IMG/VR virus record: IMGVR_UViG_3300006751_000002
Coordinates: 1 to 44,003 of that record
DNA length: 44,003 bases
From: a virus
Direction: 5' to 3' (one strand)
How positions within the stretch are numbered: position 1 is the stretch's first letter; the number at the start of each line of letters is the position of its first letter. The notes below the pieces were generated by a model that had not been told where the DNA came from, did no database searches, and saw only the letters and a list, made by a program, of their open reading frames with translations. Position numbers and translations under genes: made by a program. Of the stretch, positions 21,779-40,200 are shown piece by piece.

Positions 21779-21804
21779 GCGTGCAGTATTATACAGTATG
21801 ACTA

Positions 21805-21847
21805 CCAACATCTAGTGTCATAAGTTGGTGTACATACAAGATGTTGT
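21805..21847. promoter_or_regulatory. Divergent pair of the CACAAGATGTAGT-type motif between terL and the portal group
   Basis: Minus-strand copy CACTAGATGTTGG (21817-21805, 10 of 13 match) faces left towards terL. Plus-strand copy TACAAGATGTTGT (21835-21847, 11 of 13) faces right. The minus copy lies about 17 bp upstream of a TATAAT (21793-21788, minus), the position of a -35 element. The two copies also form the inverted repeat CAACATCT/AGATGTTG (21806-21813 with 21839-21846). Confidence 0.45.
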
Positions 21848-21860
21848 GGTATGGTCAGCC

Positions 21861-22223
21861 ATGGATAGTTTTATAGTGCCCTTCACTGCGGTTATCTTCG
21901 GTGTATTCATAGTAGGATTTAAGCTGATTTTTGACCAACACCGCAAGACTATCGATCTTCTCGTGCGCTCAAACGCGGAGTCTGCTGAGAGTTTGTGCAA
22001 ATCTCACGAAAATATGCTCAACCACCTAAAAGAGGCCTCACCAATAGGCGGGCTTCCACGGGATCTATGGCTTGAGCAGCATAAGCTTAAGACCCGAGAG
22101 ATTTCACTGCGTGAGCAGCAGTTTGAGGTGGAGGCTCCTTTGAGAAAGCAAGCGCTTGAGCATCGGCTACGGAAGACGGGTCGGCTAGGTGGCAGAGCCC
22201 AACTAAGTAACCCGGAGAACTAA
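21861..22223 (+). CDS. Membrane-anchored coiled-coil protein, 120 aa, upstream of portal
   Basis: Begins MDSFIVPFTAVIFGVFIVGF, one strong transmembrane span at residues 3-25, then a long charged helix with coiled-coil character (REISLREQQFEVEAPLRKQA). It ends immediately before the portal ATG. A TTG at 21825 could extend it by 12 residues. A holin/spanin-like or virion membrane role is possible, but there is no lysis context here. A small terminase is unlikely given the membrane span. Confidence 0.6.
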   Translation: MDSFIVPFTAVIFGVFIVGFKLIFDQHRKTIDLLVRSNAESAESLCKSHENMLNHLKEASPIGGLPRDLWLEQHKLKTREISLREQQFEVEAPLRKQALEHRLRKTGRLGGRAQLSNPEN

Positions 22224-24317
22224 ATGGCAAAGAAGATCACCCCAGCCCGAGCCCAAGAAATGCTCGATGAGATTCAGGGCTTGCTTGAAGATGCGCTGAC
22301 CGCAACCGGGCAGAGGGTGCCTGCGCTAGTTGAACAGATGGCCTTTTATCGGGGCTTGCAGTGGGGCACAACCTCTCCCCTTGGATGGGTGCAGGACGAC
22401 TTTGATCTTGATGAGGCTCGTGAGGTTCTGAATTATATCCGTCCCACGGTAAGAACAGCCGTCTCCGACGTTTTGCGTTCAATGCCCAATCCTTCGGTGA
22501 TTGCAACCTCAGACGATCAGATGTCACACACACGCGCAAAGGCATCACAGAAGCTACTCAGGTCCTTTATGCGTAGTGGTGTTATGAACTTTGAGACGAT
22601 GTTCCGTGCGGAGACCGCAGCCCAGATCCACGGGGCCTGTTGGTATAAGGTCATCTGGGATCCTAACGCTGGCAGATACCGTGATATGCCTCTAGTTGAT
22701 CCAGAGACGGGTGGAGAAGAGTTGGATGAATTCGATCTGCCTAAGTTCGAGCGACGTGCAGAGGGAGACATCAAGCTTCAGTTCGTAGATATTATCAGTG
22801 CCGCCTGTGATCCTCACGCGAGAAACGAGGACGAGGTGTTCCACATCTTCCATCGCAAGCTGCTTCCCACCAGGACCCTTGAAGATCATTTTCCTTATGA
22901 TGCTTTCGGCAAAAAAACCAAGGGCAGATGGAAGCGTCGAGCCTTTGAGCGCGGCCTTCAGGCTTCGGACATTATTGAGAACGATGGCAGAAGTCACGCG
23001 ACCCCAGGATTTGAAGGCAGTCACACCACCTCAAAGGGCAATGAGTTAGCAGATCTGATTGAGTATTGGGAGAGGCCGTCGAACAAGTACCCTCGTGGCA
23101 GGCTCATAGTATTTAGTGGCGACGTGATCGTCGCTGTGGGTCCACTGCCCTACGAGTGGCCTTGGATCCTGCGACTAGGACAAAACATTCTACCTAGCGG
23201 GCTATATCCCGATGGTGTTGTGCGCGACATTATTCCTATTCAGCGCACCATCAACCTGAATGCGAGCAAAAAAAGGGAGTGGATGAGTAAATTATTGAGT
23301 CCCCCCCTTCTCGTGCCTCACGGCTCCGGCATTGACACAGATCTATTTGATGATGTTGCCGGATCAGTAATTCAGTACAACCCCGGATTGCGGCCAGATT
23401 GGATGCGTGTGCCCGATATTCCAGGGTCTATGTTCACCCTAGAAGACCAGGCAGTCAGTGTTCTTCAGACCATATCCACCTACTCAGATATTTCTCGCGG
23501 TGAGCCACCTAAGGGCTACGATAGTGGCCGTGCACTGGCATACCTATACGAGTTCCAAAAAGCCATCCATGAGGTGGACATTCATCTTTTCCGTAATGAT
23601 GTGTCGAGATTACTGACGAAGTGCCTCAAATTGGCACGCGACTTTTATGATGAAGGTCGAATAGTTAAGATGCTTGGCGACAATAACAAGTGGCAAGCAT
23701 CACACTTCAAGAAGGACGACTATGATTTTGAGGCCGAAGTCATGGTTGAAGCCTTCAGTGGTGCGCCCAACAGCAGAGCACTTCGATTTGCAGAGGCTAT
23801 TGAGCTATATCAGCTCGGTGCCTTTGATCCCGAGGATCCATCAGCTAAGAGTCTGCGCCAGATTCTCGAAGTAGACTATGATGATGCGAACACGCACCAC
23901 CGTAAGGAAATCCACTATTCCCGAGCGCGAGCAGAGCAGGCAGCGCTGTTGGATGATCCATACGCCGAGTTGAAGGTTCTTGGTCAGGACAACCACGATT
24001 GCCACCTAGATCTACATATCGACTATGCGGTGACAGAGGAGTTCCTCTCCCTCCCCGAAGCCGCTAAGGAGCGGTTTTTGAAGCACATTGAAGAGCACGA
24101 GATGTGGACTGCCCGCCAGACCGAGGGGGCTGCGATGGAAGAGACTATGATGTCTGGACAATCGCCGCAGGCGGGTGGTCCTCCTCCACCTAAAGCGCCG
24201 CAATTACCATCACCACGTGATGGAGGTGGTGGTGCTTATGGGCCTTTAGTGATTGAAAATCCAGAGATGGAAGAGGCACCGCTGCCCTCTCCTGAGGAGC
24301 TGACAGGAACATCATGA
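22224..24317 (+). CDS. Portal protein
   Basis: 697 aa, the usual size of podovirus portals, which form the dodecameric ring through which DNA is packaged and ejected. The N-terminal region has helices with L-N-Y-I-R-P-T-V-R-T-A-V-S-D. The middle has D-I-I-P-I-Q-R-T-I-N-L-N-A-S-K-K-R-E-W-M and I-S-T-Y-S-D-I-S-R-G-E-P-P-K-G-Y-D-S-G-R-A-L, the conserved portal pattern of linking helices with a late S-G segment. The C-terminus is Pro/Gly-rich and disordered. Start ATG follows the previous stop directly. Its position before scaffold and capsid genes supports the call. Confidence 0.88.
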   Translation: MAKKITPARAQEMLDEIQGLLEDALTATGQRVPALVEQMAFYRGLQWGTTSPLGWVQDDFDLDEAREVLNYIRPTVRTAVSDVLRSMPNPSVIATSDDQMSHTRAKASQKLLRSFMRSGVMNFETMFRAETAAQIHGACWYKVIWDPNAGRYRDMPLVDPETGGEELDEFDLPKFERRAEGDIKLQFVDIISAACDPHARNEDEVFHIFHRKLLPTRTLEDHFPYDAFGKKTKGRWKRRAFERGLQASDIIENDGRSHATPGFEGSHTTSKGNELADLIEYWERPSNKYPRGRLIVFSGDVIVAVGPLPYEWPWILRLGQNILPSGLYPDGVVRDIIPIQRTINLNASKKREWMSKLLSPPLLVPHGSGIDTDLFDDVAGSVIQYNPGLRPDWMRVPDIPGSMFTLEDQAVSVLQTISTYSDISRGEPPKGYDSGRALAYLYEFQKAIHEVDIHLFRNDVSRLLTKCLKLARDFYDEGRIVKMLGDNNKWQASHFKKDDYDFEAEVMVEAFSGAPNSRALRFAEAIELYQLGAFDPEDPSAKSLRQILEVDYDDANTHHRKEIHYSRARAEQAALLDDPYAELKVLGQDNHDCHLDLHIDYAVTEEFLSLPEAAKERFLKHIEEHEMWTARQTEGAAMEETMMSGQSPQAGGPPPPKAPQLPSPRDGGGGAYGPLVIENPEMEEAPLPSPEELTGTS

Positions 24318-24318
24318 C

Positions 24319-24368
24319 CACAAGATGTAGTATGTGGGCTTTGACAGTCCCACGATTTGTAGTATTGT
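24319..24368 (+). promoter_or_regulatory. Tandem CACAAGATGTAGT-type motifs with a sigma-70-like promoter before the scaffold gene
   Basis: CACAAGATGTAGT at 24319-24331 and the variant CACGATTTGTAGT (10 of 13) at 24351-24363, 32 bp apart. TTGACA at 24341-24346 and TATTGT at 24363-24368 with a 16-bp spacer could form a host-type promoter. All lie between the portal stop and the scaffold start. Confidence 0.5.
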
Positions 24369-24375
24369 CAACCCG

Positions 24376-25269
24376 ATGAGTGAAGAAAAAAAACCGACCC
24401 CCGATCTCGCCGAGATGACACTAGCTCAACTTGAGGACACTTTATTCCGTGACTCTACGATTGAAGTCACAGACCACACCTCTAGTCATGATCCAATGGA
24501 AGCTATGAAGGCACTTATGGACAGTGGGGCTGCGGAGACTGCGGATCAAGCGGTGGAGGCTCAAGAAGCAGCTAAGGAGGAAGTTGAAGTACCAGCACCA
24601 GAAGAGGCACCAGTCGCCCCGGAATCAGCGGCTGCACAACAGCAAGCCTCCCCCGAGATGCAGCAATACCTTTCCCAGAATCAGCAGATACTGGATTACC
24701 TGGCACAACAACAGCAGACACAGCAAGCGTCGGTAGAGCAGGGAGCCTCAAGTGATGAGGCAATTAATGAGGCAATTCGTGCGGCGGGCCTAGATCCTCG
24801 TGAGCCGATGCACCAGTTTGCATACCGGCAATCCATGGAGTCCAGTTCGTTAGAGCAGCGACTTATCGAGATGGAGCAGCGCGTTCAGCACTACGAGCGA
24901 GAGGCAGCCACTGCGAACGCTCAGGCCCACGTATCACCTCAGGTCAGTGAAACACTTAAGCCATATGGAGATCTCCCACAGGATACAATCGACACGATCA
25001 GGGACAACGCAGCCCTCGCGATGTCTCATGGTTACGACGTGCAGCAGTCAATTGATCTGGCTGTAAAGCCCTACCTTGGCTTGTTGCGTCATATGAAAAC
25101 TCTTCAGGGACCAGTAAAACCGGCACCCGAGAAAAACACCCCCCTCAATCAACCCACGCGAGACGACACAGGTCTGCTTGCGGCTTCGTTGACTGGACGA
25201 TCAACCGGACATGGCAAGCAAATTGAAAATCTTTCAATAGATGATATTGAAAAGGTTCTCTTCAAATAA
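24376..25269 (+). CDS. Capsid scaffolding protein
   Basis: 297 aa starting MSEEKKPTPDLAEM. Strongly acidic N-terminal half, Gln-rich stretches (QQQASPEMQQYLSQNQQI), coiled coil (EQRLIEMEQRVQHYEREAA) and a short basic/helical end: the composition of scaffolding proteins, which direct procapsid assembly and are then lost. It is flanked by portal and major capsid genes, the canonical place. An earlier in-frame start at 24334 would overlap the promoter-like sequences, so the ATG at 24376 is chosen despite a weak ribosome-binding site. Confidence 0.8.
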   Translation: MSEEKKPTPDLAEMTLAQLEDTLFRDSTIEVTDHTSSHDPMEAMKALMDSGAAETADQAVEAQEAAKEEVEVPAPEEAPVAPESAAAQQQASPEMQQYLSQNQQILDYLAQQQQTQQASVEQGASSDEAINEAIRAAGLDPREPMHQFAYRQSMESSSLEQRLIEMEQRVQHYEREAATANAQAHVSPQVSETLKPYGDLPQDTIDTIRDNAALAMSHGYDVQQSIDLAVKPYLGLLRHMKTLQGPVKPAPEKNTPLNQPTRDDTGLLAASLTGRSTGHGKQIENLSIDDIEKVLFK

Positions 25270-25279
25270 GGATTAAAAA

Positions 25280-26725
25280 ATGGTTACAGTAGCAGATGTA
25301 GTAGAAAGCACTATTGGTACCGGCCAATCGCGTTCAGCGTATGGTGCGATGCTCAAACAAGTATATGGACCCGCTTGGTCAAAGTGGCTTCATACCGATT
25401 CAGCCGTCTTATCCGGCAAGATCGCAAACAAGAAAGGCAGCATGGGCGGCCAGATGAAAGTCAACGCCATAACAACTGCGTTGCCTCAGTCAGCCGGTAT
25501 TTCTCTTGGAGAGGGTTCGCTTTTGCCTTACCCGATTCACGGCTCTTATATCAACCCGCGCATTGTTGCTCGTGACTTTTACACCCGGCTCCGATGGACT
25601 GGTCAAAGTCAACGCGCAGCACGGATGGGCGACAAGGCAGCATGGGCAAGGCCGAAGCAAAGCGACATTGAAGACGCTCGTGCGCAGTCGGGCCTAAACT
25701 TCGCTCGTAAGCTTTATCTTGGTTATCATGACGTTATGGACGTTGTTGTTGGTCAGGCTGAAGGTGGATCGGGCAGCGAGCTTACTCTGGCCGACAGGGA
25801 CACTCGTCGTGGCGGCGACACCACTGGTGGTGGTTCTGTTTCTCAGTACCATCGATTTGGCGGTCATTATCTGCGGGAAGGTATGCTTCTTTCTGCGGTT
25901 GCGAGCGGAAGCGGCATGGCTGGTGCTCCTCGGACAGAGCTTGCGGGGTCTGCCTACAGCAAATCTGTAAAGATTACTGCGGTAGATCTGAGCAACCTTG
26001 CTGCACCTAAGATCACAATAGCGGGCGTAGATGGCGGCGCGGATGTGGCTACTGACGTGGTTGCGGGGAACGACTTCCTTATTCCGTTTGGTTCTCGTCG
26101 AGACAGCATTACTGCAACGGAGAAGGACTCGGACTTTTTCTCCTTCAACGGTGTTCAGTCGGTAGTTTGTGGTAGTGATTTTTACTCTCATCTTTACGGT
26201 CTTGCGAAATCTACTCACTCTAAGTTGAGTGGTGTTATTGACCGCAACACCGAAGACAATGATCTTCGTATTTACAGTGAGCTTCGTTCTGCATTGATGT
26301 TTGATCGGATTCGCAACGAAGGCAGTGGCGGGAAACCGGACACAATTATCGTTCAAGATGCGCTTCTTCGCGGAATCGTCAACGCGACTCAAGGACTTCG
26401 TCAGTTTGCGCCAGTGCAGAAGGGTGAGTTTGGCTATGGTAATTTGCAATTTACTGCGGGCGACACCACCACTCCAATCGTTGCAGACTGGCTGCAGGTT
26501 CCTGGTCAGATGTTGTTCATCGACTCGAAACAGTGGGGCTTCTACACAGAGAGTGAATTGTCTCCGTTAGATGATCCGCAGACTCGCTTCGTAACTGATA
26601 AGGACCAGACGGAATTAGTATTCCATATGTCAGGGAACGAGGAGTGCATGAAACCTCATAGTCAAGGAATCATTGACGATTTGTCCTATTCTGGCACTAG
26701 CATTATCGGTACTCGCACAGTCTAA
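25280..26725 (+). CDS. Major capsid protein
   Basis: 481 aa following the scaffold gene with AAGGATTAAAAA before the ATG. An N-terminal arm and an extended loop are followed by N-P-R-I-V-A-R-D-F-Y-T-R-L-R-W-T-G-Q (early core strand/helix), a long helix with N-F-A-R-K-L-Y-L-G-Y-H-D, and a C-terminal part with D-A-L-L-R-G-I-V-N-A-T and M-L-F-I-D-S-K-Q-W-G-F-Y-T. The length, spacing and place fit an HK97-fold coat protein; a Gly-rich region about 150-230 is probably an inserted surface domain. Family is inferred from synteny and fold pattern, not from a strict motif. Confidence 0.82.
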   Translation: MVTVADVVESTIGTGQSRSAYGAMLKQVYGPAWSKWLHTDSAVLSGKIANKKGSMGGQMKVNAITTALPQSAGISLGEGSLLPYPIHGSYINPRIVARDFYTRLRWTGQSQRAARMGDKAAWARPKQSDIEDARAQSGLNFARKLYLGYHDVMDVVVGQAEGGSGSELTLADRDTRRGGDTTGGGSVSQYHRFGGHYLREGMLLSAVASGSGMAGAPRTELAGSAYSKSVKITAVDLSNLAAPKITIAGVDGGADVATDVVAGNDFLIPFGSRRDSITATEKDSDFFSFNGVQSVVCGSDFYSHLYGLAKSTHSKLSGVIDRNTEDNDLRIYSELRSALMFDRIRNEGSGGKPDTIIVQDALLRGIVNATQGLRQFAPVQKGEFGYGNLQFTAGDTTTPIVADWLQVPGQMLFIDSKQWGFYTESELSPLDDPQTRFVTDKDQTELVFHMSGNEECMKPHSQGIIDDLSYSGTSIIGTRTV

Positions 26726-26735
26726 TTTACATAGG

Positions 26736-26764
26736 GGTGGCGTAGTTCTTTGGGCTGCGCCACC
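26736..26764 (+). terminator. Hairpin after the major capsid gene
   Basis: GGTGGCG (26736-26742) pairs with CGCCACC (26758-26764) across a 15-nt loop, followed by TTTGGTGGTTTT. It starts 11 bases after the capsid stop and ends 13 bases before the next ATG. It could act as a partial terminator that lowers expression of downstream genes relative to capsid. Confidence 0.5.
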
Positions 26765-26776
26765 TTTGGTGGTTTT

Positions 26777-27700
26777 ATGAGACCTAAACATCTCGGACCT
26801 AACGCGAGTATGCCGTCGAATGTCGATCTGACGGGTGCGTTCGATCCATCGACAGGTTTGCCGTACAGCGTGAAGAAGTTGCGTTGGCCGGAGATCTTCG
26901 AGATGCGCTTTGATCCTGAGAAGATCATGATGTCACCACCTCTGCCGGTGGGTGTTGAGACCGTGTTCAAAGATGTGTTTCCGAATGAGACTCGCGGTGA
27001 CAAACCTATCCTCAAGATAGCGCTTCATCCGTGGTTCAAGCGGTGGTGCCTATGGGAGTACGTTCCTGCGAGTGAGACAGACTGCGGGATGATTCCTGAA
27101 GGCTGGGCTTTTACGCAAATGTTCTATAAGCGCGGCACCATGAAGCCCGGTTACTTGCCTGCTGACCTCAATTATGAGGATAAGCGGTGCGAAGAGCTTC
27201 GAGGAGAGATAGGCGACTACTGTCCACCAGACAGGGACTGGCTGGAGTGGGTCAAAGGCCACTGCTCGTTTGAGAAGATGTCACCTGAAAAGATGGCAGA
27301 GTTTCTCATCTTGGAGCAAGAGGATAATAAACGGAATACAGAAAGTGAGCACGAGTCACGACTTCACGACTTCCATTCTTACTATTGGAACCTGTTCCGA
27401 GATCTCACAAACATAGAGGAGGGGTGTGCGAGCAAATCAATGCAGTGCAACCAGACCTCTATCGATGAAGTGAACCAGCGTGTTCGAGACAAGATGCGAA
27501 CGATCAACCATAACGGGATCAAGTATGTCGTTCGACCGGGGTCTCGGTGGGAGAAGAGAATCCTAGACGAGATCGAGGGTGAGAAGAAGGCATTCTGGGA
27601 TCATATTGACAAGGTTGAGGCTCAGAAAGACCGAGAGTTGATGTTCAAGCAAGCGAAGCGCACATCGCTCGGAATGCAAGAGTCAGGGAAGACGATGTAA
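26777..27700 (+). CDS. Hypothetical head-region protein, 307 aa
   Basis: Starts MRPKHLGPNASMPSN. The middle contains many aromatic and charged residues (W-F-K-R-W-C-L-W-E-Y-V-P), several cysteines and a long helical C-terminal half. No family recognised. It lies between major capsid and adaptor genes and ends TAATG-coupled to the next gene, so a minor head protein is the best guess. A TTG at 26750 is an alternative start that would overlap the hairpin. Confidence 0.65.
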   Translation: MRPKHLGPNASMPSNVDLTGAFDPSTGLPYSVKKLRWPEIFEMRFDPEKIMMSPPLPVGVETVFKDVFPNETRGDKPILKIALHPWFKRWCLWEYVPASETDCGMIPEGWAFTQMFYKRGTMKPGYLPADLNYEDKRCEELRGEIGDYCPPDRDWLEWVKGHCSFEKMSPEKMAEFLILEQEDNKRNTESEHESRLHDFHSYYWNLFRDLTNIEEGCASKSMQCNQTSIDEVNQRVRDKMRTINHNGIKYVVRPGSRWEKRILDEIEGEKKAFWDHIDKVEAQKDRELMFKQAKRTSLGMQESGKTM

Positions 27701-28389
27701 TGGCTGCGGTACGGAAGCCGGTTGAGACACTGAACAATATCCGCTATCGTGTGCAGCGCGACACCGGAGATCTTGATGGAGAGCGCTGGTCCAACCAGAA
27801 CATGGATGAGGCAATTAACAACCAGCTCATCGAGATGGGGACAGAGATTGCGATTACATACCCCGGTGATGCGCTAGTCACCGAAGATCTAACTTACTCG
27901 ACGGCAACACAGCCCGTAGACTTGCCTGATATTGTTGGCGTTGAGGGCGTTTACCGCGTTGATGACGTATCAACATCAGGCAGCACCTTTCAACTGTCCT
28001 ACGTATCCCCTTTAGAGTTGGATGAGTTTGAGGTGACGACCGCCGCAAACAGCCATGTCCGCCGCAGGTATACACTCTACGGGCCAACCACAGATGCGCA
28101 ATCTCCTCGGATTCAACTACTGCCAAAGCCCGCAGCGGCGACCACTTTGCGCATATATTATATAGCCACACCTTACTATCTGGTAAACGCCGAAGACACG
28201 AACCCTCTCTCACCCAGGTGGGTTGAGCTTGTGTCGCTCGGTGCTGCACTTAAACTTCTGCGTCGAGATGACGAAGCGACCACCCAACAGGTGATGTCCT
28301 TTGCGCGACTCTGGATGCAGTTTCAACAATTCAGTCGGCGACAGAAGGGGCCAAAGACAATCCGTCGCAGAAGGAAGGGAGTCTCATAA
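27700..28389 (+). CDS. Head-to-tail adaptor-like protein, 229 aa
   Basis: Begins with a helical segment L-N-N-I-R-Y-R-V-Q-R-D-T and D-E-A-I-N-N-Q-L-I-E-M-G-T-E-I-A. Strands follow (VDLPDIVGVEGVYRVDD, then RIQLLPKPAAATTLRIYYI), and a helix with L-S-P-R-W-V-E-L-V-S-L-G-A-A-L-K-L-L. The pattern matches connector proteins that bind below the portal (gp4-like of P22 and related). The basic C-terminus may touch DNA or portal. Start overlaps the previous stop (TAATG). Position supports the role. Confidence 0.7.
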   Translation: MAAVRKPVETLNNIRYRVQRDTGDLDGERWSNQNMDEAINNQLIEMGTEIAITYPGDALVTEDLTYSTATQPVDLPDIVGVEGVYRVDDVSTSGSTFQLSYVSPLELDEFEVTTAANSHVRRRYTLYGPTTDAQSPRIQLLPKPAAATTLRIYYIATPYYLVNAEDTNPLSPRWVELVSLGAALKLLRRDDEATTQQVMSFARLWMQFQQFSRRQKGPKTIRRRRKGVS

Positions 28390-28772
28390 TGTTAGTGATG
28401 AACGACTGTGATAAATATTTCACGTATGGCTATGGGGGCCTCACCAAGTTTGTGCCCCCGCGTGACGGTGGGACTTGGAAAGAGGTCCAAGATGGGGCGA
28501 ACATCACCTATGAGAAAGTCAGTGAAAATCCTCCAACGAACGGGGTCTATGTTTCAGATCACGAATGGAAGTACCTGAACACCGGATTTATGCAGTCACG
28601 GCATAACCTGAAGCCTGTTCACAATATGATGACCGATGTAACGAACCAGTTATCTGAGCTTCAAAAAGAAAAGGCGCGGCTTGCGACAGAGAACGAAGAG
28701 TTCAAGGCTCGTTTAGCCCTTTACAGCGATCCTGAGCCAAAGAAGACGGCAACCAAAACGAAGAAGCAATGA
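28389..28772 (+). CDS. Hypothetical 127-aa virion-region protein with coiled-coil end
   Basis: N-terminal half is beta-like (DKYFTYGYGGLTKFVPP, then NGVYVSDHEWKYLNTGFM). Residues 80-110 form a coiled coil (LSELQKEKARLATENEEFKA), and a Lys/Thr-rich tail closes it. Coupled to the adaptor gene through TAATG. Probably a small particle component or chaperone; no family recognised. Confidence 0.6.
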   Translation: MLVMNDCDKYFTYGYGGLTKFVPPRDGGTWKEVQDGANITYEKVSENPPTNGVYVSDHEWKYLNTGFMQSRHNLKPVHNMMTDVTNQLSELQKEKARLATENEEFKARLALYSDPEPKKTATKTKKQ

Positions 28773-28773
28773 A

Positions 28774-31581
28774 ATGGCACGGGGTTACTCACCAATCCCC
28801 CTTTCTCCGATGGTGGGAGGGGTCAACCGATTTGAGGGCGAGTCTGCACCAACTCAAGCAGCCGAAGCGCTCGATGCAGTAAACAGTGAGGGCAAGGTCC
28901 GTCGCCGTGGTGGCATGACGACCTTTGCCACCGGAGCCCCACATCACCTCCCCGCAGGTGCCGTAAATGTTATTGCGTATGCGTCGTCTTATAGTAACCT
29001 GACGAACCGCGCTGGCAGTATTTCCAGCAACTCTGTTTTTTATGTTGGATGTGGTGAGCAGTTTGACGGGATCGACTGGCCTGGAAGCGCTCTGCCCGCC
29101 AATGCCGCCGCAGTACCCGATGACACCTACTACTTGGAAGCCCACTACTGGAATGGGTCGGCGTGGACAGCAATACCGTTCATACACGACACAACACAAT
29201 GCAGGCCTATTAGGACTGACGGTGGCGACGACTTAACTGCAGCACAGAGGCATGTGTCTTTGTCGCTCAGTCAGCACGGGCATATCTCCTGGCACACCGA
29301 AGAGCACCTAGCCAACTGGGCTACGACAGAAGTAAACTCCATCACCAGGTACTACGTCCGTCTCTCATTGATGGCTGCGGGGAGCAGCGTTACTGCAAAG
29401 TCTGGCACAACGATTAATCAGCCGGGTGTGCGTGTTTTCAAGCTAGCACCCGTGAATGGATTGTTCCCCGTGAAACTTAAGGACCGAGCGGTCCTTGTTG
29501 TTGGAACGGATAGGTCTGGTCGTGGAGGAGCAATTCGGAGAGGAGTTGAGTTTGGTGCACAGCTCGGTCTCCATACCAACGAAAGGGCAAAGATTGAAAC
29601 CTCTATGCTGGTTGCTGATGAGGGTGCTGCGACCATCGGACAGTTCACTCACGTTGGGTGGGACGGTTCTGGAACATGGAACACCGGGACAACAGGTGAA
29701 CTAGAGAAGACCAAGAAAACCTTCCTTGATGCAGACACAATAGAGCGTGACTATAAGTGGCTATATGATCCCAGCGAGCCCAAGCAAGGGCAGTTTCTCG
29801 GTGCAATCATCGCGGAAAATCTCCTCAAAACAGACACCCCAACCGCCACACTCGTAAAGCTTGTTGATGCGGACGGGGATGCGGTCGCTGAAGACTATGA
29901 AAATTGCCGTCTTCGGATTACGTCAAGGACCAGTGGCTCTTCAAATCCCCAGGTAGGGGAAGAAAGGGAGATCGTAAGCTACGATAGCACCAACGGGTAT
30001 ACAGTGTATCCGGCATTCTCTGGAGCACCTGCTGCTGAACATCGGTTTGCTGTTTACAGGCCTCATGCCGTCGTTCGGTTCGATACAGATCGGGATGATG
30101 GTTTTAGCTCGGGGGTGTCCGTCACCCATAACTGGGAAGTAGGCTCGCACACTGACCACACGATAACACCAGTCGCAGCCGCTACCAATCCATACGCAGA
30201 ACTTGCAGATCTCACGGCGCAGTTTGTAAATTTCGAGGTCGGTCGTGAGCTTCGTTGGACAACTCCCGGCGGAGAGCGTTGGTGCGGTGCGTACGACTCT
30301 GTAACTGGAAAGCTGATTCTCGCGAATGGGGAGTGTCCGCTCCTAACATTTGATGGACGAAGGCTTCGAGTTCTTGAGGCTGATGACAGCAGTGACTCTG
30401 CTAGAGATCTCGCAGGTGAACTTGCCATCAACTGGTCTATTGCTGAAGCGGGAAGCAACATCGCAGCAAACGCTACCGCAAATGCCATGTTTAGGCCCGC
30501 GCCGCCAATAGGTGCATATGTTGTCGATTACATGGGCCGCATTGTTGTGGCAGACCCCAAGACAAACATCGTTGCCTATAGTATGCCAAACCTGGCAAAT
30601 GATATTTGGCCTTACGGATACGAGGTCAAGATTCGGGATGACGAAAATAGCACGATCACAGGACTTGCAACGCTCTATGATCAGCTTTTAGTTTTTACCT
30701 CAACAGCAATTTTTGCCACCGCACCTGCGGGTCAATTTGGACAATTTGCATTCAACCGTGTCGCGCATGGTGTTGGGTTTGTATCTCATCACTCGGTCCA
30801 AAAGATTGCAGCGGGCGGGTCTTCAGCCATCATTGGCGCAGGCACTGACGGTGTATATATGTTCAATGGAACTGATCCTGTCCCTGTCCTAGATGACTGG
30901 AAGAGGCTGCTTCCTGAGGGCGTAAACCGATCCGGCATGAAGAACGCATGTGCCACAGCGTCTTTCGTTGAGAACAAATATTATCTTGCTGTTCCTAGTG
31001 CAGGCAGCAACAAGAATGATCGGATTTTGGTTTTTGATTGGCTTAGAAAACAGTGGTGGGTGTTTAGTGCCCCCTACGGTGCGGCGTCTCTTGCCACAGA
31101 TCTGGACGAAAACGGCAAGGAGCGGGTGCTCGTAGGTACCTACGATGGTCATGTCGCTGAGTTCACGAACCATGACACTGACGATGGTACAGCGATCACT
31201 GCTACAGCAAAGTCGCCAGCGTTCTCGCCTCTCGGTAGAACGGGACAAGAAGCAAGCTTCATAGCCTTAACGCTGGACATGAAGAACCTAGGCACAAACA
31301 CGGTTACGATCAGCACTTATACTAACCGTCAGACGAGGTCTCGCGAGTCGTCGAGTGGCCTCGCTAAGACCTTGAAGGTGGATGCTGGTCTCGATGTTTG
31401 GGGCACGGGCACGTGGAATAACGCAACATGGGGAGATCATCGGACGAAAACCGTCAGATTAAACATGCCAACAAGCGCACGAGGGTCGCAGATCCAGTAC
31501 GAGATCAGTGGGAGCGGGTCATGGGAGTTGAATTCGGCAGTCCTGTTCGCCCGCCCGATGGGACCAAGAGGCCGAAGATGA
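28774..31581 (+). CDS. Tail hub / tail-tubular-B-like protein, 935 aa
   Basis: The start has the typical P-L-S-P-M-V-G-G-V-N, with A-x-A-L-D-A-V-N-S-E-G-K-V-R-R-R-G-G. This resembles the opening of podovirus tail proteins (T7 gp12, P22 gp10 type), where the sequence reads G-x-N...A....N....g.l..R.G. The long body is beta-rich with G-A-G-T-D-G-V-Y-M-F-N-G and R-I-L-V-F-D-W-L-R-K-Q-W-W-V-F repeats of propeller type. It would close or extend the short tail below the adaptor. The next gene overlaps its stop as ATGA. Confidence 0.68.
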   Translation: MARGYSPIPLSPMVGGVNRFEGESAPTQAAEALDAVNSEGKVRRRGGMTTFATGAPHHLPAGAVNVIAYASSYSNLTNRAGSISSNSVFYVGCGEQFDGIDWPGSALPANAAAVPDDTYYLEAHYWNGSAWTAIPFIHDTTQCRPIRTDGGDDLTAAQRHVSLSLSQHGHISWHTEEHLANWATTEVNSITRYYVRLSLMAAGSSVTAKSGTTINQPGVRVFKLAPVNGLFPVKLKDRAVLVVGTDRSGRGGAIRRGVEFGAQLGLHTNERAKIETSMLVADEGAATIGQFTHVGWDGSGTWNTGTTGELEKTKKTFLDADTIERDYKWLYDPSEPKQGQFLGAIIAENLLKTDTPTATLVKLVDADGDAVAEDYENCRLRITSRTSGSSNPQVGEEREIVSYDSTNGYTVYPAFSGAPAAEHRFAVYRPHAVVRFDTDRDDGFSSGVSVTHNWEVGSHTDHTITPVAAATNPYAELADLTAQFVNFEVGRELRWTTPGGERWCGAYDSVTGKLILANGECPLLTFDGRRLRVLEADDSSDSARDLAGELAINWSIAEAGSNIAANATANAMFRPAPPIGAYVVDYMGRIVVADPKTNIVAYSMPNLANDIWPYGYEVKIRDDENSTITGLATLYDQLLVFTSTAIFATAPAGQFGQFAFNRVAHGVGFVSHHSVQKIAAGGSSAIIGAGTDGVYMFNGTDPVPVLDDWKRLLPEGVNRSGMKNACATASFVENKYYLAVPSAGSNKNDRILVFDWLRKQWWVFSAPYGAASLATDLDENGKERVLVGTYDGHVAEFTNHDTDDGTAITATAKSPAFSPLGRTGQEASFIALTLDMKNLGTNTVTISTYTNRQTRSRESSSGLAKTLKVDAGLDVWGTGTWNNATWGDHRTKTVRLNMPTSARGSQIQYEISGSGSWELNSAVLFARPMGPRGRR

Positions 31582-32842: not shown

Positions 32843-34812
32843 TGCCAGGAAAACCACGAAGAGTTTATACCACTCGCCGACCTATTGATTACCTTACTCG
32901 TGCGAATATGCCCAGCGCAGGTAATAACACTTACAGCCCGCGCAAGCCTCCTGGCTATCAACTCGGTGGTGGTGTCAGACTAACAGAGCCTGCCACCGAT
33001 AGACTGAGGAGCGTCAGGACCGCAACCACACCTTCAGCAGCGGGAAGCCGGGGGTTCTCTTCTCTCCACACCCCTGCACCGGCACAAAGGCCAGCAGTCG
33101 CCAGACATAGCCCTCTAGGTCTCGCCTCACCCGCAAGTACATCGACGATGCCGGGAGCGGGAGGGATTCGCGAACCACGTATAGCACAGCCCCCTTGGAA
33201 GCCCAGAACAACAGGATCGGGGATGTGGGAAAGCACTCGTGGCGACCCAGCAAGAACGATGCGGGGAGCGTCAGAACGAGCACGGCTGGCGGGAGGCGCA
33301 GGATTTGGACCAGGCACCGCATGGACACAAAACCTAGGTCAACGAGTCCCTGGGACAGATGTTGGTCGCCCACCAGATCCTCGATTCGAAGAGCGTGAAG
33401 GCATGAGCGAAGAGGAATGGTTGGCGAGAAACGATCCCAACTCACCTCACTTCGGTCTTCCTGCTCATATACCACTGGGAACGACAGACCCAGGGCAGCA
33501 TCCTGCTGGTGAGCCAGCACCTGTGACAGGAGGGTTTGGTACCACCGCATCAGGTGTAACGGGAGGGTTTGGTACCACCGAGTCAGGCCTGCAGGCACAG
33601 TCAGGTGGTGCTCGTGATACTGAAATTCAGTCCGACGCGGGTGATGAACTCAATGTCTGGGACATGAATGAGCCCGATAGAAACAGAGCTTACATTGCTG
33701 GTGACGCATATCGGGCGGGTGGGCGAAATGCAGCCTATTGGTCAGGTTCGGCGTATGCAGGGCAGGGATTTGCAACAAGGTACTACTCGCCAGATCCCTC
33801 TCAGGGCAGTGGTGACTACCAAAACCAACTTCGGAACTTGTTTCTTGGATCAGGCGTGGGCTCCCAGTATGCAGACGCTTTTGACCTTGAGTGGAGCGAA
33901 CACCTAGACGACTGGATAATGAAACCAAAAGAGAACATTAACGATACTGAGTTTGGTCGATGGATCCAGCGAGTTAATGTGCACCAGTATTATCACTCGG
34001 GTGAAGACACCGCTCTTGGGCACTCGGGTGGAGGGCAAGGATCTGCAGAAGCGGCCTCAAATGCTGAAAGCATTACGCTTGGTATGGCAATGGACTACGA
34101 AGCCCGCAAGCTTCGCTCAAACCTCAACCGCTTATCTCCTGAAGAACTGCAAGTCATGGAGTCAGACGGAACAAGAGGCTTCATGACCGAGATGGTAGGT
34201 CAGGGCTTGATGAGCAACGTGTATGGTGACGACCAGAGTGTCAGTGATCAGTACGGTGAAGCGGGGGAAGCTACCGCGCCCGGTGGTGAAGCCGGGGGAT
34301 TAGAAGGGTCTCGCATCTCCGATGAAGAGAGTGAGGCGAACGCAAGGGCTGCTGCTGAACGACTTCAGGCGAGCGTGGGACGCAGCCTTCGGGGTCTTTA
34401 TGAGAAGATGGGCGCACGAGGGATGTCAACAGGCCAGATGATGGGCTTGGCAGCCGATGCGGGGACGATGGGCTCTGTGGCGGTTAGCGATGCAGCAAAC
34501 CGTTCGAGGATGCAGGATCGAATGCAAAACCTCCAGGTTGATATGGCAAAGTTCTCTGCAAATCAACAGTGGAACCTTGCGTTGCTCCAGGGTGAGTTGA
34601 GAGAAGAAGAACGGTCGGCACTGTTTGCGCAAAACCTTCAGCTTCAAAAGCTACAGGAAGCCGCACAGGCACGCATGATGAAGCTTCAGCAGGAATTGAA
34701 TAAGCCAACAACGGCTGACAGATTCTGGCAATTACTCGGCACTGTGACTGGTGCTGCTGCTTCTGCTGGCGGAAGCGCACTTGGAATGTACGCTTATGAT
34801 CAGTGGGGTTAG
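32842..34812 (+). CDS. Putative virion protein, Gly/Arg-rich, 656 aa
   Basis: ATG overlaps the previous stop (TAATG). The N-terminal third is low-complexity Pro/Arg/Gly. A tandem 11-residue repeat (V-T-G-G-F-G-T-T-x-S-G) lies near residues 228-249. A central region has Tyr-rich segments (DNA 33690-33800), and the C-terminal third is a long Met/Gln/Leu-rich helix or coiled coil (LQVDMAKFSANQQWNLALLQ) with a final hydrophobic helix. Similar mixed proteins in podoviruses sit inside the head or form internal tail parts and are ejected. No enzymatic motif is seen. Confidence 0.62.
   Translation: MPGKPRRVYTTRRPIDYLTRANMPSAGNNTYSPRKPPGYQLGGGVRLTEPATDRLRSVRTATTPSAAGSRGFSSLHTPAPAQRPAVARHSPLGLASPASTSTMPGAGGIREPRIAQPPWKPRTTGSGMWESTRGDPARTMRGASERARLAGGAGFGPGTAWTQNLGQRVPGTDVGRPPDPRFEEREGMSEEEWLARNDPNSPHFGLPAHIPLGTTDPGQHPAGEPAPVTGGFGTTASGVTGGFGTTESGLQAQSGGARDTEIQSDAGDELNVWDMNEPDRNRAYIAGDAYRAGGRNAAYWSGSAYAGQGFATRYYSPDPSQGSGDYQNQLRNLFLGSGVGSQYADAFDLEWSEHLDDWIMKPKENINDTEFGRWIQRVNVHQYYHSGEDTALGHSGGGQGSAEAASNAESITLGMAMDYEARKLRSNLNRLSPEELQVMESDGTRGFMTEMVGQGLMSNVYGDDQSVSDQYGEAGEATAPGGEAGGLEGSRISDEESEANARAAAERLQASVGRSLRGLYEKMGARGMSTGQMMGLAADAGTMGSVAVSDAANRSRMQDRMQNLQVDMAKFSANQQWNLALLQGELREEERSALFAQNLQLQKLQEAAQARMMKLQQELNKPTTADRFWQLLGTVTGAAASAGGSALGMYAYDQWG
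33523..33588 (+). repeat. Two tandem 33-bp repeats
   Basis: 33523-33555 and 33556-33588 each encode V-T-G-G-F-G-T-T-(A/E)-S-G; the core GGAGGGTTTGGTACCACCG is identical. In frame within the 656-aa gene. Confidence 0.85.
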
Positions 34813-34817
34813 TCTAG

Positions 34818-35708
34818 ATGGTAGCTAAAGAAGGGTTTGGGAACTTTGTTGAAGCGTTTACTCGCTCTTTCGAGCCGAGTACTTTTACTCGCTCTTTCGA
34901 GCGGGCGAGAGCTATGGGGCAGCGGAGAAAGGAGCGCACCAAGGAGCGCACAATCCGGCGGCGGGACGAAATGAACCGCGAGTTCCGTGCAGAGAAGCGG
35001 GGCAGAGAAACTACCGAAGCAGCTAATCGGCAGAGCAGGCTCAGAGTTATGTTCAACAAATCATCCGGGCCACTGTCTGAGGCGCATGTAGCAGATAACT
35101 GGGAAAGGATGTCTAAGCTCCCTCAAAACTCTGAGGCGTTTCGTAGTTTCGTAGCCAAGTGGAGAGAGGAGCAGGAGAAAGATCAAAGGGCAATCCAAAA
35201 AAGAAGGAGAGACCTCGCCACTGCATCGGGGAGGACTCAATTTCGACTTGCAAACCAGGCTCAAAAACAGAAAGACTCCGAACAAAAACGTAGAGATACC
35301 GATCTCAGACAACGAGCGTCTTTTGGCAAGGCTTTCGTGGACCTAAGTAACGAGCTAAAAAAGAGGAAGGATCCTTTGAGGCTCAACGCTGCCGCACTCA
35401 ACAAGCTCTCCACGGACTTAATATCCAAACAATATTACGATGCTCGGGTAAACGCTAAACCTCAACCGAAGAAGCCTTCCGTTGGTGATGTTGCCTATGA
35501 GGCGGGCCTTGGGCTTAGAGAGCTTGCCCCCTATGTGTTTGATGTGGCTGCCGTCTATGAACTCAATGGAGATCTGGGCCGGTTTCGCTACCAAAGGGGT
35601 ATTGACCGAAGCTTGGTAGGCTATACTAACGCTCTTATCCTCCGGGCCCAAGGCAAAGGCAATATACTTGAGGGCACCTTTGGTCGTCCCACATGGAGTC
35701 CAGACTAA
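34818..35708 (+). CDS. Hypothetical basic helical virion-region protein, 296 aa
   Basis: The N-terminal 35 residues contain two copies of F-T-R-S-F-E. A very basic, Arg/Lys/Gln-rich helical region (about 30-180) with coiled-coil character follows, then a more hydrophobic end with E-L-A-P-Y-V-F-D-V-A-A-V-Y-E-L. It is likely an internal head or DNA-associated particle protein, judging from charge and its place before the 1,360-aa gene, to which it is TAATG-coupled. No family recognised. Confidence 0.6.
   Translation: MVAKEGFGNFVEAFTRSFEPSTFTRSFERARAMGQRRKERTKERTIRRRDEMNREFRAEKRGRETTEAANRQSRLRVMFNKSSGPLSEAHVADNWERMSKLPQNSEAFRSFVAKWREEQEKDQRAIQKRRRDLATASGRTQFRLANQAQKQKDSEQKRRDTDLRQRASFGKAFVDLSNELKKRKDPLRLNAAALNKLSTDLISKQYYDARVNAKPQPKKPSVGDVAYEAGLGLRELAPYVFDVAAVYELNGDLGRFRYQRGIDRSLVGYTNALILRAQGKGNILEGTFGRPTWSPD
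34857..34902 (+). repeat. 27-bp-period direct repeat (two copies of a 19-bp core)
   Basis: TTTACTCGCTCTTTCGAGC at 34857-34875 and 34884-34902, each ending in the small palindrome GCTCTTTCGAGC. In frame; encodes F-T-R-S-F-E twice. Confidence 0.85.
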
Positions 35709-38700
35709 TGGCTGGAGAAGGCACCCCTCCAGAGCAGACTGAAGAGTACTGGCTTGAACGGTTGGGTGTCCCTGCAGAGCCGATAGCATCCCCTCTGCCT
35801 GAGACATCCTCGGTGTCAAGGGTTGAGATGCCCAGTGCTGGTGTAGAGGAGCAAGAGGACGAGAGGTATTGGCTGCAAAAGATGAGTGTCCCGACACCTC
35901 AACCGGGGACCATCAAGCTACCGAGAGCACAACCAAAGAGACTCACTCCCCGACAGGAGACGTTGAGATCTACTCTTCCCGAGATGGAACGCGCTCTAGG
36001 GAAGGCACCCACAGATGCGCAATTTGAGGAGCAGATTGAGCGAGCACGCGCACTGGGTCCAGCCGGTGAACGACAAGTTGAGCAGCTAGAAAGGGTGAGG
36101 GACCAGACATTCTCGTTGAGAGGGCAATCTCAAGAGCTTGGTGACTATGCTCAAAAGCACGGTTTAAGGAAGGAAGGTAAGGAGTACAGCAAGCTTGCCA
36201 CCGAAGGAAAGCCTGCCGAGCCACACTGGGCTTGGTCTGGTGCTCAAATCGCAGCCAGGGCTCTTGACTATGTTACGCAGCGTCCCGCTCGTGTGTTGAC
36301 CGCACCCTTTCTTGCTCGTCCCGGTGAAGATTCAGATAAGTTTGTTGAGGACTGGCAGGCCTGGTCAGACCGACTGCAAGAAGAAGCCGAGAAGGGCAAC
36401 GGTCCCGCTCAGGCAATCACTGCAATTCCAGATCTCCTTGGCAACATCTTTGGCAAGTATGTGGTCGGTCAGGCGGTTGTCGGCGTAGGCGTAACGATGG
36501 ACTGGATGGCCGGTCAGCCAACAGACTGGAAGTTGGTAGACAAGACCATCGCTGACATCCAGGGAGAGACGAAGGATTTCTTTCTTCTAATGGAGACGGA
36601 CTGGTCTACTTATTTCGGCGGCCTCGGTACCGGAAAGACCGTCATCAAAGGCCTGTCTCCGACACCTCTTGTTGGAGCCCATGCCAATGTAGCACGCGCT
36701 ACGATGCGCGTTGCCCGCAAGAGCTACAACAGTGGCGCGAAAGATCCACGGATGTTCAAGCTTCTCGCTGCAACCCAGAAGCTTGTGCCTTTTATGGATG
36801 ATCCGAAGATAATGAATCGCGCAGTCAAGGTCTTTGAGGAGCACGGCTTGTCTTCAAGAGAGGCAGCGCGGGCTTTTGGTAGACGTGGTGAGTTCTTCGG
36901 TGCTGATCTTCCTTCGTTCTTGCCTAATGAGATCCCAATTTTAGGCGGCCCATCACGCTATGTCACAGGCAAGGCAGCAGAAGGCTTGGATGCAGTCCTT
37001 GCGAAGGTAGGGCATAAGGCGTCTTACGTTACAGATCCCTACGTGGTTCGGAAGGTTGCTCAGGTTGCGTATCGAGCACTCCCTAAGGCTGCCGCAAAGA
37101 TCGGACAAAGTAAGTTGGCTGGTCTCAATACTCCGTTTGCCATGTTCAAAGGATATGAGCCGGTGTTTGATATGTTTGATCCTGATCGTAGATTCTTGAA
37201 GCACATTCAGCGAATAGCCAAAGCCGGATCCGCTATTCGAGAGACCGACATCATTCAGCGTCTCAAGCGCATATCTCACAACGCACCTGAGGACGCATCA
37301 CGGCGGATTGAGATCGTGAAAGAGGCCTTTGATCCTTCCGTTGGGAAGGGGGCCAAGAAGAGATACGAGGCGTTTATGCAGACGCTTACGAAGTCTGAGA
37401 AGCAGTATGTGGACGACCTTAGTAAATTCTTCCATGAGATCTATGAAGAGTCTGTTGAGGCCGGATACCTAAAGAAGAACCAACTCGCCTACAATCGGGT
37501 AACTGGTCGATACTTCCCCCGTCTTTATAGTAATGACTATGGTCTATTGGTTGAACTGCCCGATGTCTTGCGTAGCCCATGGATGAATGAATTCAGGCTC
37601 CCCACAACTGCTGCATCTCGTGTGAGTAAGACTGGCTTACCTATCGGAGAACTCAACGATGAGTTTATCAAAGCCGCCGCAGACCCACACATGGCGATAC
37701 CTACCTATGCTGCCAGAATTGCGAGAGGTGAGGCGGCAGTACACCTCGAAGATCAAATCCTTGCGCACTATGGCAGAGCTGTAACCAAAGAGGGACGCGG
37801 CATCTTTGGAAAGATGAAGGTCATCGAAGGACCCCATGGTCCGGTTGAAGTACCTGCGCACCTGTACAACTTCCTTCGCGGCTCTTTCGATAGTTCCTAC
37901 ACATCCCTTAGTAATTTTCTAAAGAGTAGGCTTGGGGTGCATGGAAGATATACGCGGGCAGTCACTAAGTCCCTCGATGCCCTTGCTGTTGTCCGAAACA
38001 GGTGGAAGAAGCAAATGCTCATCAAGAGGATGGCTTACCATAACCTCAACATTGCGAATGATGTCACCCTCATGGTTCTCGATGGCAACTTCAACGCGGG
38101 CAAGTGGGCACTAGACGCAGAGTCAATGCTCTCACGCGGAAAGATGTTGTCCTCTCGAACACTTGATTCGGTCAGACGGCTAGAGAGAAACGTCGATGAG
38201 ATTATAGGGAACTACTATCCTACTCCCTCTCAGGCTGATACGGCTGCGCGTGTTGCTGCAGTGCAGGCGCATGGGGCAGGACCGGCGGCAAAACTTCCCG
38301 CTGGAATGACGATGAGTACCCAGGAGGCGATGTACCGGCGGGCGCTTAAGGGCTCTCTCGAAGAGAAGATCCTCTACATCGCTAAACGCGAGGGGCTGCC
38401 AGTAGATGTTGATCTTTCGCTGGAACGGCTGGAACTTGTCGGCGGACCAATGGTCGGCAAGCGAAAGCTGAGGCGTGAGCTTCAGAAAACCGCCCGTAAG
38501 GGTCGGAAGGCGCGGGGCGAGAAGCTTGGCGCTAAGGCTCAGGCTGCCCACTATGGTGGTGAAGCTGGTCACGGGCTCATGTATGCGCTAGAGCACGTCG
38601 TTCCTATGCCCGGTGAGACCCTGGCCAAGGCCTGGGAGAGTAGTTCAAAGTTAGGCCATTTTATGTGGCGACTTTCGCTGGGTGATGCTCCCGGCAGGGC

Positions 38701-39790
38701 AGTGGCACGGACCTTTGATACACTCATCGACTATACCGATCCTAATCACTTCGTTTCACTGCTGCGTTGGGTGATGCCTTTTGCGACTTGGGTGGCAAAG
38801 GCCCCCGGTGTTGCCGCGAGGATGACAGCAAGACAGCCCCGACTCGTGGGTGCGATGTCTAAAGCGTACGACGTATATGGAAGACCTGAAGGTCGTGGAG
38901 AAACCGGGCCTAGAGGCCATGTTGCCGAACGCGGACAGTTTACGCACCTTGGCAAATTTGGGAAGAGGGCATTAGGACGAGCCACTTACGATATTCCAAA
39001 GCGCGTTCAAGACGCAGTCAGGGGTGCCGAGGTAGCTGGCTACACTGGTGACTGGATTGTGGACAACTTCCTTCGCCACTATCCTGTTCCCTTGATTGGT
39101 GGCACGCCCGCGAAACTGCCTTCTCATATTGATGCTGTGATGCTTGGTCGTGATCCTATCGGCGAGGGCTGGAGTGCGCCCGCCGAAGTTACCGGTCTTC
39201 GCAGTTACATGGAAGACGGGAGCCTGGTGCCAAATAAAGACTTCATTGCCAAATCCGCGATGCCAATGATGAAGATGCTATACGAGGTTGTGGCGCAGCG
39301 GGATTCCTTGAAAGGGAGAGAATATACCGGCACGACAGGAATGTTCCCAGCCGGGTTTGTTGTCCCCGAGTCAGACATGCCTCTTTTCAAGCAGACGCTC
39401 GATGTGGCAGATGAGGCATTAAGAGCCATGCCTGGGGGTAGAGCAGGTCCGCGAGGGCTGCCTGTTTTTTCAAAGCATCTACTTCCCTTCCTGATTGCAA
39501 ATCCCAACGCTGTACCGATGTTCAACTCGATCCTCTTTGAGCACGCAGGGGGCATGGAAGCTGGGGCTACGCCACTGTCAATTGGCGGGGAACGACCTTA
39601 CGTCTCAGACGAGGAAAACCTCTACTACGGGAAGAAGCAGATTCAGAACATTAATCGCTGGCTTCCTTTTCCTATTTATCTCACGATGCCAGGAGACCCA
39701 TTCCTCGATATTAGAGGGAAGCTCAAGGCTGGCAAAGAGGCTGGTAGAGAGGCGATCAGAACACTGGAGAAAGACAGGCACCGATATTAG
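35708..39790 (+). CDS. Very large putative ejected / internal virion protein, 1,360 aa
   Basis: Longest gene in the window. The N-terminal 150 residues are Pro/Glu-rich and contain a twofold E-(E/R)-Y-W-L motif (EEYWLERLGVP, ERYWLQKMSVP). The middle includes a likely amphipathic or membrane segment (YVVGQAVVGVGVTMDWMAG, about 258-276). Near residue 585 is K-F-F-H-E-I-Y-E-E-S-V-E-A-G-Y followed by G-R-Y-F-P-R-L-Y, a pattern I associate with large polyvalent phage proteins. Near residue 1018 is L-L-R-W-V-M-P-F-A-T-W-V-A-K-A-P-G. No peptidase, transglycosylase or polymerase motif is recognised. It is probably carried in the head and injected with DNA. Confidence 0.6.
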   Translation: MAGEGTPPEQTEEYWLERLGVPAEPIASPLPETSSVSRVEMPSAGVEEQEDERYWLQKMSVPTPQPGTIKLPRAQPKRLTPRQETLRSTLPEMERALGKAPTDAQFEEQIERARALGPAGERQVEQLERVRDQTFSLRGQSQELGDYAQKHGLRKEGKEYSKLATEGKPAEPHWAWSGAQIAARALDYVTQRPARVLTAPFLARPGEDSDKFVEDWQAWSDRLQEEAEKGNGPAQAITAIPDLLGNIFGKYVVGQAVVGVGVTMDWMAGQPTDWKLVDKTIADIQGETKDFFLLMETDWSTYFGGLGTGKTVIKGLSPTPLVGAHANVARATMRVARKSYNSGAKDPRMFKLLAATQKLVPFMDDPKIMNRAVKVFEEHGLSSREAARAFGRRGEFFGADLPSFLPNEIPILGGPSRYVTGKAAEGLDAVLAKVGHKASYVTDPYVVRKVAQVAYRALPKAAAKIGQSKLAGLNTPFAMFKGYEPVFDMFDPDRRFLKHIQRIAKAGSAIRETDIIQRLKRISHNAPEDASRRIEIVKEAFDPSVGKGAKKRYEAFMQTLTKSEKQYVDDLSKFFHEIYEESVEAGYLKKNQLAYNRVTGRYFPRLYSNDYGLLVELPDVLRSPWMNEFRLPTTAASRVSKTGLPIGELNDEFIKAAADPHMAIPTYAARIARGEAAVHLEDQILAHYGRAVTKEGRGIFGKMKVIEGPHGPVEVPAHLYNFLRGSFDSSYTSLSNFLKSRLGVHGRYTRAVTKSLDALAVVRNRWKKQMLIKRMAYHNLNIANDVTLMVLDGNFNAGKWALDAESMLSRGKMLSSRTLDSVRRLERNVDEIIGNYYPTPSQADTAARVAAVQAHGAGPAAKLPAGMTMSTQEAMYRRALKGSLEEKILYIAKREGLPVDVDLSLERLELVGGPMVGKRKLRRELQKTARKGRKARGEKLGAKAQAAHYGGEAGHGLMYALEHVVPMPGETLAKAWESSSKLGHFMWRLSLGDAPGRAVARTFDTLIDYTDPNHFVSLLRWVMPFATWVAKAPGVAARMTARQPRLVGAMSKAYDVYGRPEGRGETGPRGHVAERGQFTHLGKFGKRALGRATYDIPKRVQDAVRGAEVAGYTGDWIVDNFLRHYPVPLIGGTPAKLPSHIDAVMLGRDPIGEGWSAPAEVTGLRSYMEDGSLVPNKDFIAKSAMPMMKMLYEVVAQRDSLKGREYTGTTGMFPAGFVVPESDMPLFKQTLDVADEALRAMPGGRAGPRGLPVFSKHLLPFLIANPNAVPMFNSILFEHAGGMEAGATPLSIGGERPYVSDEENLYYGKKQIQNINRWLPFPIYLTMPGDPFLDIRGKLKAGKEAGREAIRTLEKDRHRY

Positions 39791-39799
39791 TCGAGTAGA

Positions 39800-39843
39800 C
39801 ACAAGATATGGTATTATTCAGACGAGTGGGCACAAGATGTAGT
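39800..39843 (+). promoter_or_regulatory. Tandem CACAAGATGTAGT-type motifs before the fibre operon
   Basis: CACAAGATATGGT (39800-39812, two mismatches) is directly followed by TATTAT. CACAAGATGTAGT (39831-39843) is identical to the copy at 24319. Spacing is 31 bp. The second copy ends 13 bases before the ATG of the 110-aa gene, with GGAGGAT between. A candidate late promoter or activator site. Confidence 0.5.
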
Positions 39844-39856
39844 GCCTGGAGGATAG

Positions 39857-40189
39857 ATGGTCGATAAAGTTAACAGCGGAGTACTGCTCAAGTTAGACGC
39901 AAATACAGACGAGGAGAACTCATCCAGCACCTTTCGCGACAGAAGGGGGGCTAGTAGGTCAGCGGTTTACGTGTACTGCTCTATTGCAGTTACCGCTGGC
40001 AACATCAAGCTCATGCTCAAGGACCCATCCGGCGAATTTCGGGAGTTCCAGGTAAGCACAAGCGCACTGACCGGGGCAGCTAATAAATGTATGGTCCACT
40101 TCGTCCTCGACCACCCCTTTGGAGAAGGTCGGGTTGACGTTACGACAGGGACTAGCACTAAGAGCCTTTACGCCTGGTTTGTGAGCTAA
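39857..40189 (+). CDS. Hypothetical 110-aa virion-region protein
   Basis: Starts MVDKVNSGVLLKLDANTDEE after GGAGGATAG. Beta-strand pattern with V-Y-V-Y-C-S-I-A-V-T-A-G-N-I-K-L-M-L-K-D and H-F-V-L-D-H-P-F-G-E-G-R-V-D-V. It is likely a compact beta-sandwich. As the first gene after the tandem motif and before the fibre gene, it may be a fibre adaptor or head decoration protein. No family recognised. Confidence 0.6.
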   Translation: MVDKVNSGVLLKLDANTDEENSSSTFRDRRGASRSAVYVYCSIAVTAGNIKLMLKDPSGEFREFQVSTSALTGAANKCMVHFVLDHPFGEGRVDVTTGTSTKSLYAWFVS

Positions 40190-40200
40190 CAGGAGAAACC

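Follow-up and report, generated by a model that had tools for sequence, protein, structure and literature searches.

The timing of late gene expression in phages is usually ascribed to sigma factors, activators or antiterminators that the phage itself makes, and lambda Q, P2 Ogr and T4 gp55/gp33 are examples of such phage-made factors acting on late genes. In bacteria, NrdR is the repressor of the ribonucleotide reductase (RNR) genes and senses the building blocks of DNA. In the S. coelicolor operator, box 1 has its conserved G-C pairs at positions 9 and 18 and box 2 at 40 and 49, which offsets the boxes by 31 bp; the NrdR tetramer spans both, at a distance of about three helical turns (PMC9110341). 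Four NrdR proteins prefer pairs of boxes with spacers of 14-17 bp, and also of 24-27 bp, far above all others (PMC12051234).

Two described systems connect phages with NrdR. During lytic infection of S. pneumoniae by SpSL1, three NrdR-controlled operons rise from 10 min and are the most induced host genes, so that infection can indeed free NrdR targets (PMC6755750). In cyanopodoviruses, a phage gene has been annotated as NrdR (PMC8790148). Our search of the literature, which covered open-access articles, found no earlier report that places phage late genes under NrdR.

Here we describe three paired palindromes in a marine phage (IMG/VR record IMGVR_UViG_3300006751_000002, positions 1 to 44,003; these 44,003 nt are the window throughout). 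Like the boxes of the RNR operons (nrdHIEF, nrdDG and nrdAB of E. coli; nrdRJ and nrdAB of S. coelicolor), those of the window are 16-bp palindromes with conserved C and G and a central AT, set in twos three helical turns apart over a promoter, and they score as high as those of E. coli; unlike them, they precede phage genes for packaging, capsid and fibre, where the bacterial boxes precede RNR or nrdR genes. The proposal made below shares with SpSL1 the tie between lytic infection and release of NrdR-controlled promoters, but the genes released there are host operons, and the part of the SpSL1 report at hand does not describe NrdR boxes on phage genes (PMC6755750). With cyanopodoviruses the window would have phage use of the NrdR system in common, the difference being a regulator gene there and operators only here (PMC8790148).

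Results

A sequence-only reading of the window had listed six copies of a 13-base motif, CACAAGATGTAGT, and a re-scan returned all six with the coordinates and match counts claimed. That the motif occurs only at three regions holds true of pairs but not of single degenerate copies, of which the window has 19 at three or fewer mismatches against 10.2 expected (19 were reached in 2 of 100 shuffles). This single-copy excess being weak, single-motif statistics were dropped and pairs alone were used. The 13-mer is one face of the palindrome CWANATNTWG, the core of the NrdR box. Because the motif is palindromic, the two copies at 21805-21847 that had been taken for a divergent, inverted arrangement form a direct pair (21806 and 21837) spaced 31 bp, like the other two. 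When CWANATNTWG pairs at spacings of 20 to 45 bp were ranked over the window, the top three, spaced 31, 31 and 32 bp, were those already reported and no others (Table 1).

Table 1. Boxes, predicted promoter elements and adjoining genes at the three sites of the window
Site	Feature	Position	Strand	Remarks
A	terL, terminase large subunit	19760..21778	-	PHROG terminase families; adjoins site A
A	-10 TATAAT of leftward terL promoter	21788..21793	-	predicted
A	NrdR-like box A1 TACCAACATCTAGTGT	21803..21818	.	over -35 region of leftward terL promoter
A	NrdR-like box A2 ATACAAGATGTTGTGG	21834..21849	.	31 bp from A1; ends directly before rightward portal-operon -10
A	extended -10 TGGTATGGT, promoter of 21861 gene and portal	21847..21855	+	predicted
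A	small gene and P22-like portal gene	21861..24317	+	PF16510, 3.9e-15; downstream of site A
B	NrdR-like box B1 CCACAAGATGTAGTAT	24318..24333	.	pair scan
B	sigma-70-like promoter of scaffold/capsid operon	24341..24368	+	TTGACA 24341-24346, 16 bp, TATTGT 24363-24368; predicted
B	NrdR-like box B2 CCACGATTTGTAGTAT	24350..24365	.	32 bp from B1; covers spacer and first part of -10
B	scaffold-position gene and major capsid protein gene	24376..26725	+	downstream of site B
C	NrdR-like box C1 ACACAAGATATGGTAT	39799..39814	.	overlaps extended -10 TGGTATTAT (39809-39817), predicted
C	NrdR-like box C2 GCACAAGATGTAGTGC	39830..39845	.	31 bp from C1; between promoter and 39857 gene
C	110-aa gene and tail-fibre gene	39857..41532	+	40201-41532 tail fiber families; downstream of site C

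Pairs were scored with the 14-mer YACWANATNTWGTR, in which 12 positions are scored per box, for a maximum of 24 per pair. The three window pairs, spaced 31/32 bp, reach 22, 23 and 22. Across 200 dinucleotide shuffles the maximum was 21 for the best pair and 18 for the third best, and no other spacing between 15 and 60 bp gave a pair scoring 22 in the window. Experimentally known operators score equally, since in E. coli K-12, the positive control, nrdHIEF reached 22 at 31 bp, nrdDG 21 at 31 bp and nrdAB 21 at 32 and 31 bp, the last including a described box with central AG (PMC12176259). The window motif has AGATGTAGT in common with the E. coli nrdHIEF box CAACTACATCTAGTAT, which reads ATACTAGATGTAGTTG on the other strand. 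All six window boxes have the fixed C and G that bound the 10-bp core, and five have the central AT; the weakest box, B2, has the non-canonical centre TT (its counterpart in the relative described below is CAACAAAATGTAGTAT), and this degenerate box counts against reading the sites as NrdR operators. The spacers between the 16-bp boxes are 15, 15 and 16 bp, and the boxes lie an integral number of turns apart at the 31-32 bp, centre to centre, that is typical of NrdR operators.

The closest comparison is a contig of 40.5 kb (IMGVR_UViG_3300030118_006020; loci L006, L161 and L162), which is 80% identical to the window in terL, 82% in the portal and 77% in the capsid, while proteins around the fibre junction reach only 34-39% identity. 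Over its 40 kb, the three best pairs fall at the same three junctions, that of the fibre included, at 31, 32 and 32 bp, and in either phage the C and G that NrdR requires are present at each of the 12 places. Comparing the two sets of boxes shows changes at 1 of 36 fixed positions and at 7 of 12 free positions (p=8e-5), so the box is under selection and not simply a copy. A third relative (L174) has kept the terL/portal pair, with box A1 identical; in L006 the core of A1 is intact. The suggestion of a common regulatory site at three late promoters is thus borne out, with pairs at the terL/portal, scaffold/capsid and fibre junctions that the relative retains.

Loss of the sites in close relatives with the same gene order had been named as a possible refutation; the three pairs are kept in the 40.5-kb relative. 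Good pairs are missing from relatives at 64-67% portal identity, in which terL runs in the opposite direction; this counts against the NrdR reading, and NrdR control would therefore not be needed across the whole lineage. These box-less relatives keep the promoters, with TTGACA, 16 bp and TA(G/C)TAT ahead of the scaffold gene. An extended -10 of similar form likewise stands before their portal operon, so promoter and operator can be separated, and the pair can be said to overlie a promoter that exists without it. The same relatives bear on the explanation that the motif is a by-product of promoter sequence, its ends resembling a -10 (TAGTAT or TATTGT), or of chance. The half-site TAGTAT does look like a -10, and TAGTAT or TACTAT stands at that place where boxes are lacking; yet a promoter found there without boxes does not require the pair, the window scores were never reached in shuffles, and we regard this explanation as very improbable. 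More distant relatives (L165:9445, L166:4224 and L167-L170) have a single perfect box, CCACAAGATGTTGTAG, close to where the portal gene ends, and nothing at 31/32 bp from it makes a good second box.

Predicted -35 and -10 elements lie beneath or beside the boxes at all three sites, overlapping the site of RNA polymerase as in NrdR operators, and these sigma-70-like promoters agree with the earlier proposal that the late sites work with host RNA polymerase. The TTGACA and 16-bp spacer of the scaffold promoter are kept in relatives. That proposal had further invoked an unknown late activator, for which a constant place upstream of the promoter would be expected. The boxes instead vary from site to site, lying upstream, on the -35, in the spacer, on the -10 or downstream of the start, and since they cover -35, spacer, -10 and transcribed DNA by turns, an activator is unsupported; the varied positions fit steric repression, and motif, fixed C and G, pairing and spacing are those of an NrdR operator. 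At site A, where A1 covers the -35 region of terL and A2 abuts the portal -10, one NrdR tetramer could close both promoters. A terL start at 21811 is disfavoured, lying inside box A1, and the ATG at 21778 is the likely start. At the terL, portal-operon and scaffold promoters, only about 5-9 bases separate the predicted -10 element from the start codon (21778-21793, 21850-21863 and 24363-24378), also in relatives, a short distance that suggests leaderless late mRNAs.

What lies downstream is not a classical NrdR regulon of RNR, NrdR or nucleotide metabolism genes but terL, portal, capsid and fibre. At site B, 25280-26725 matches major head protein families, and the scaffold gene is assigned by position only; for the 110-aa gene at 39857, no relatives were found among viral contigs. 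No RNR genes are among the window's annotated genes. A search for the NrdR Zn-ribbon, which detected it in both of the bacterial genomes included, gave no match in the window and none in 48 other viral records. That the window has neither gene counts against the NrdR reading. As the phage encodes none, the regulator, if it is NrdR, would be that of the host. Between the two arms of the genome, 13830-14160 and 14870-16030 are long stretches without convincing genes, with a run of C near 15325-15340.

A regulator encoded by the phage, activator or repressor, might nevertheless bind the palindromes, the likeness to NrdR being convergence. A weak ribbon-helix-helix match is found at 5857-6171 (RHH_1, E=0.004, below the curated cut-off), and a host NrdR is itself an assumption. 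Such convergence would require the 10-bp core, the fixed C and G, the central AT and the 31/32-bp spacing all to coincide, and contigs whose terminases are unrelated, with no obvious common regulator, also carry the strict pair, so we think it quite unlikely. The 56-aa and 89-aa proteins put forward earlier as candidate regulators are not needed, motif and geometry matching the NrdR operator.

In the viral collection, at least 120 stretches contain the strict YACWANATNTWGTR pair at 31 bp, compared with a single stretch for control pairs at 26 bp and seven when the centre is turned to TA. Across viruses, the pair is thus kept for its NrdR-type spacing and centre, in line with the earlier idea that a spacing of three turns matters; the rarity of the 26-bp control also argues against a by-product of promoter sequence. 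The genes that point outward from the pairs encode terminase large subunits of several families, SPP1-type portals (7 contigs), SU10-type capsids and head-tail connectors; in one terminase cluster of 19 contigs, 10 have the gene start 216-237 bp from the midpoint of the pair. Terminase is among the first genes at about 10-13 of 58 places beside pairs and about 4-5 of 54 random points on the same contigs, a moderate excess in which the terminase counts are estimates from overlapping family tallies, over fragments and partly related contigs with a late-rich control. Promoter-like elements near pairs number 29 against 6.7 expected, due in part to the resemblance of box ends to a -10. Late genes are clearly the main target in the window's family and may or may not be so in other viruses. 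Cultured phages whose TerL or capsid is related to those of other pair-bearing contigs had no pairs near those genes, which counts against the proposed control (Pelagibacter phages HTVC027P, HTVC023P, HTVC106P and Baldr; Roseobacter CRP-901; Methylophilales Venkman; Rhizobium RHph_N2; MinM2; DSL-LC04 and others). A second common target may be the phrog_1392 family of unknown function (probably Pfam GP88): of the 58 first-gene positions at strict pairs, 6 hold one of its members (L128, L087, L129, L135, L009 and others). Near genes of 248 and 350 aa, a group of viral contigs (L016, L020, L025 and L026) carries another repeat, CAAGATGTAG, spaced 21 bp.

In bacteria, the exact window variant is absent from 299 Pseudomonadota genomes. 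This absence says little, since the strict consensus pair is itself rare, with 3 of 398 genomes containing it, once just upstream of an nrdG-like gene (L147, judged by eye) and once near an integrase gene (L148).

Four-box arrays at 31, 33 and 31 bp stand beside a terminase gene in some viral contigs (L007:11080-11190, L009:4089-4200 and L021:3860-3970). Such arrays, as in L007, would suit genuine NrdR sites whose chief role is that of decoys, the replicating DNA soaking up NrdR and raising host RNR with little effect on late genes. The RNR large-subunit gene is present in 4 of 34 pair-bearing phage records, so that most lack it, and the NrdR regulon rises during infection in another system (PMC6755750). 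Decoys could be placed freely, yet in the window's family each of the three pairs stands on a late promoter and has been retained at that place, and we judge a mainly decoy role unlikely; a decoy effect and repression of late operons could also act together.

Discussion

We consider it probable, on the grounds of motif, geometry, conservation, overlap with predicted promoters and the lack of a phage NrdR, that the three sites are tandem NrdR operators over host-type late promoters, serving terL and portal, scaffold and capsid, and fibre, and that they are repressed by the NrdR of the host. We infer binding by host NrdR, repression and timing as follows. At entry, the late promoters of the phage would be closed by host NrdR; replication would then lower dATP, or copies of the operator would come to outnumber NrdR, and the late operons would be released, coinciding with the host's own RNR genes. 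Since the window encodes a tyrosine integrase (1261-2436), NrdR could also help to silence late genes in a prophage.

As lambda Q, P2 Ogr and T4 gp55/gp33 do, such a system would coordinate several late operons; those factors are phage-made, whereas the window has a putative site for a host repressor and no phage factor was found in it. More tentatively, and with somewhat less than even confidence, many unrelated tailed phages may independently have put packaging and head operons under the dATP sensor of the host, a checkpoint between replication and packaging that would need no phage regulator, with assembly starting once dATP is drawn down or NrdR is outnumbered.

The link to NrdR is directly testable, as binding assays and structures exist for the purified protein. 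If the proposal is true, the NrdR regulon extends beyond RNR genes, and late timing in phages with no visible late regulator would have a simple cause. The phage would be reading dATP, which its own replication consumes, through a host protein present in most bacteria, and the dATP level of the cell may time the building of virus particles.
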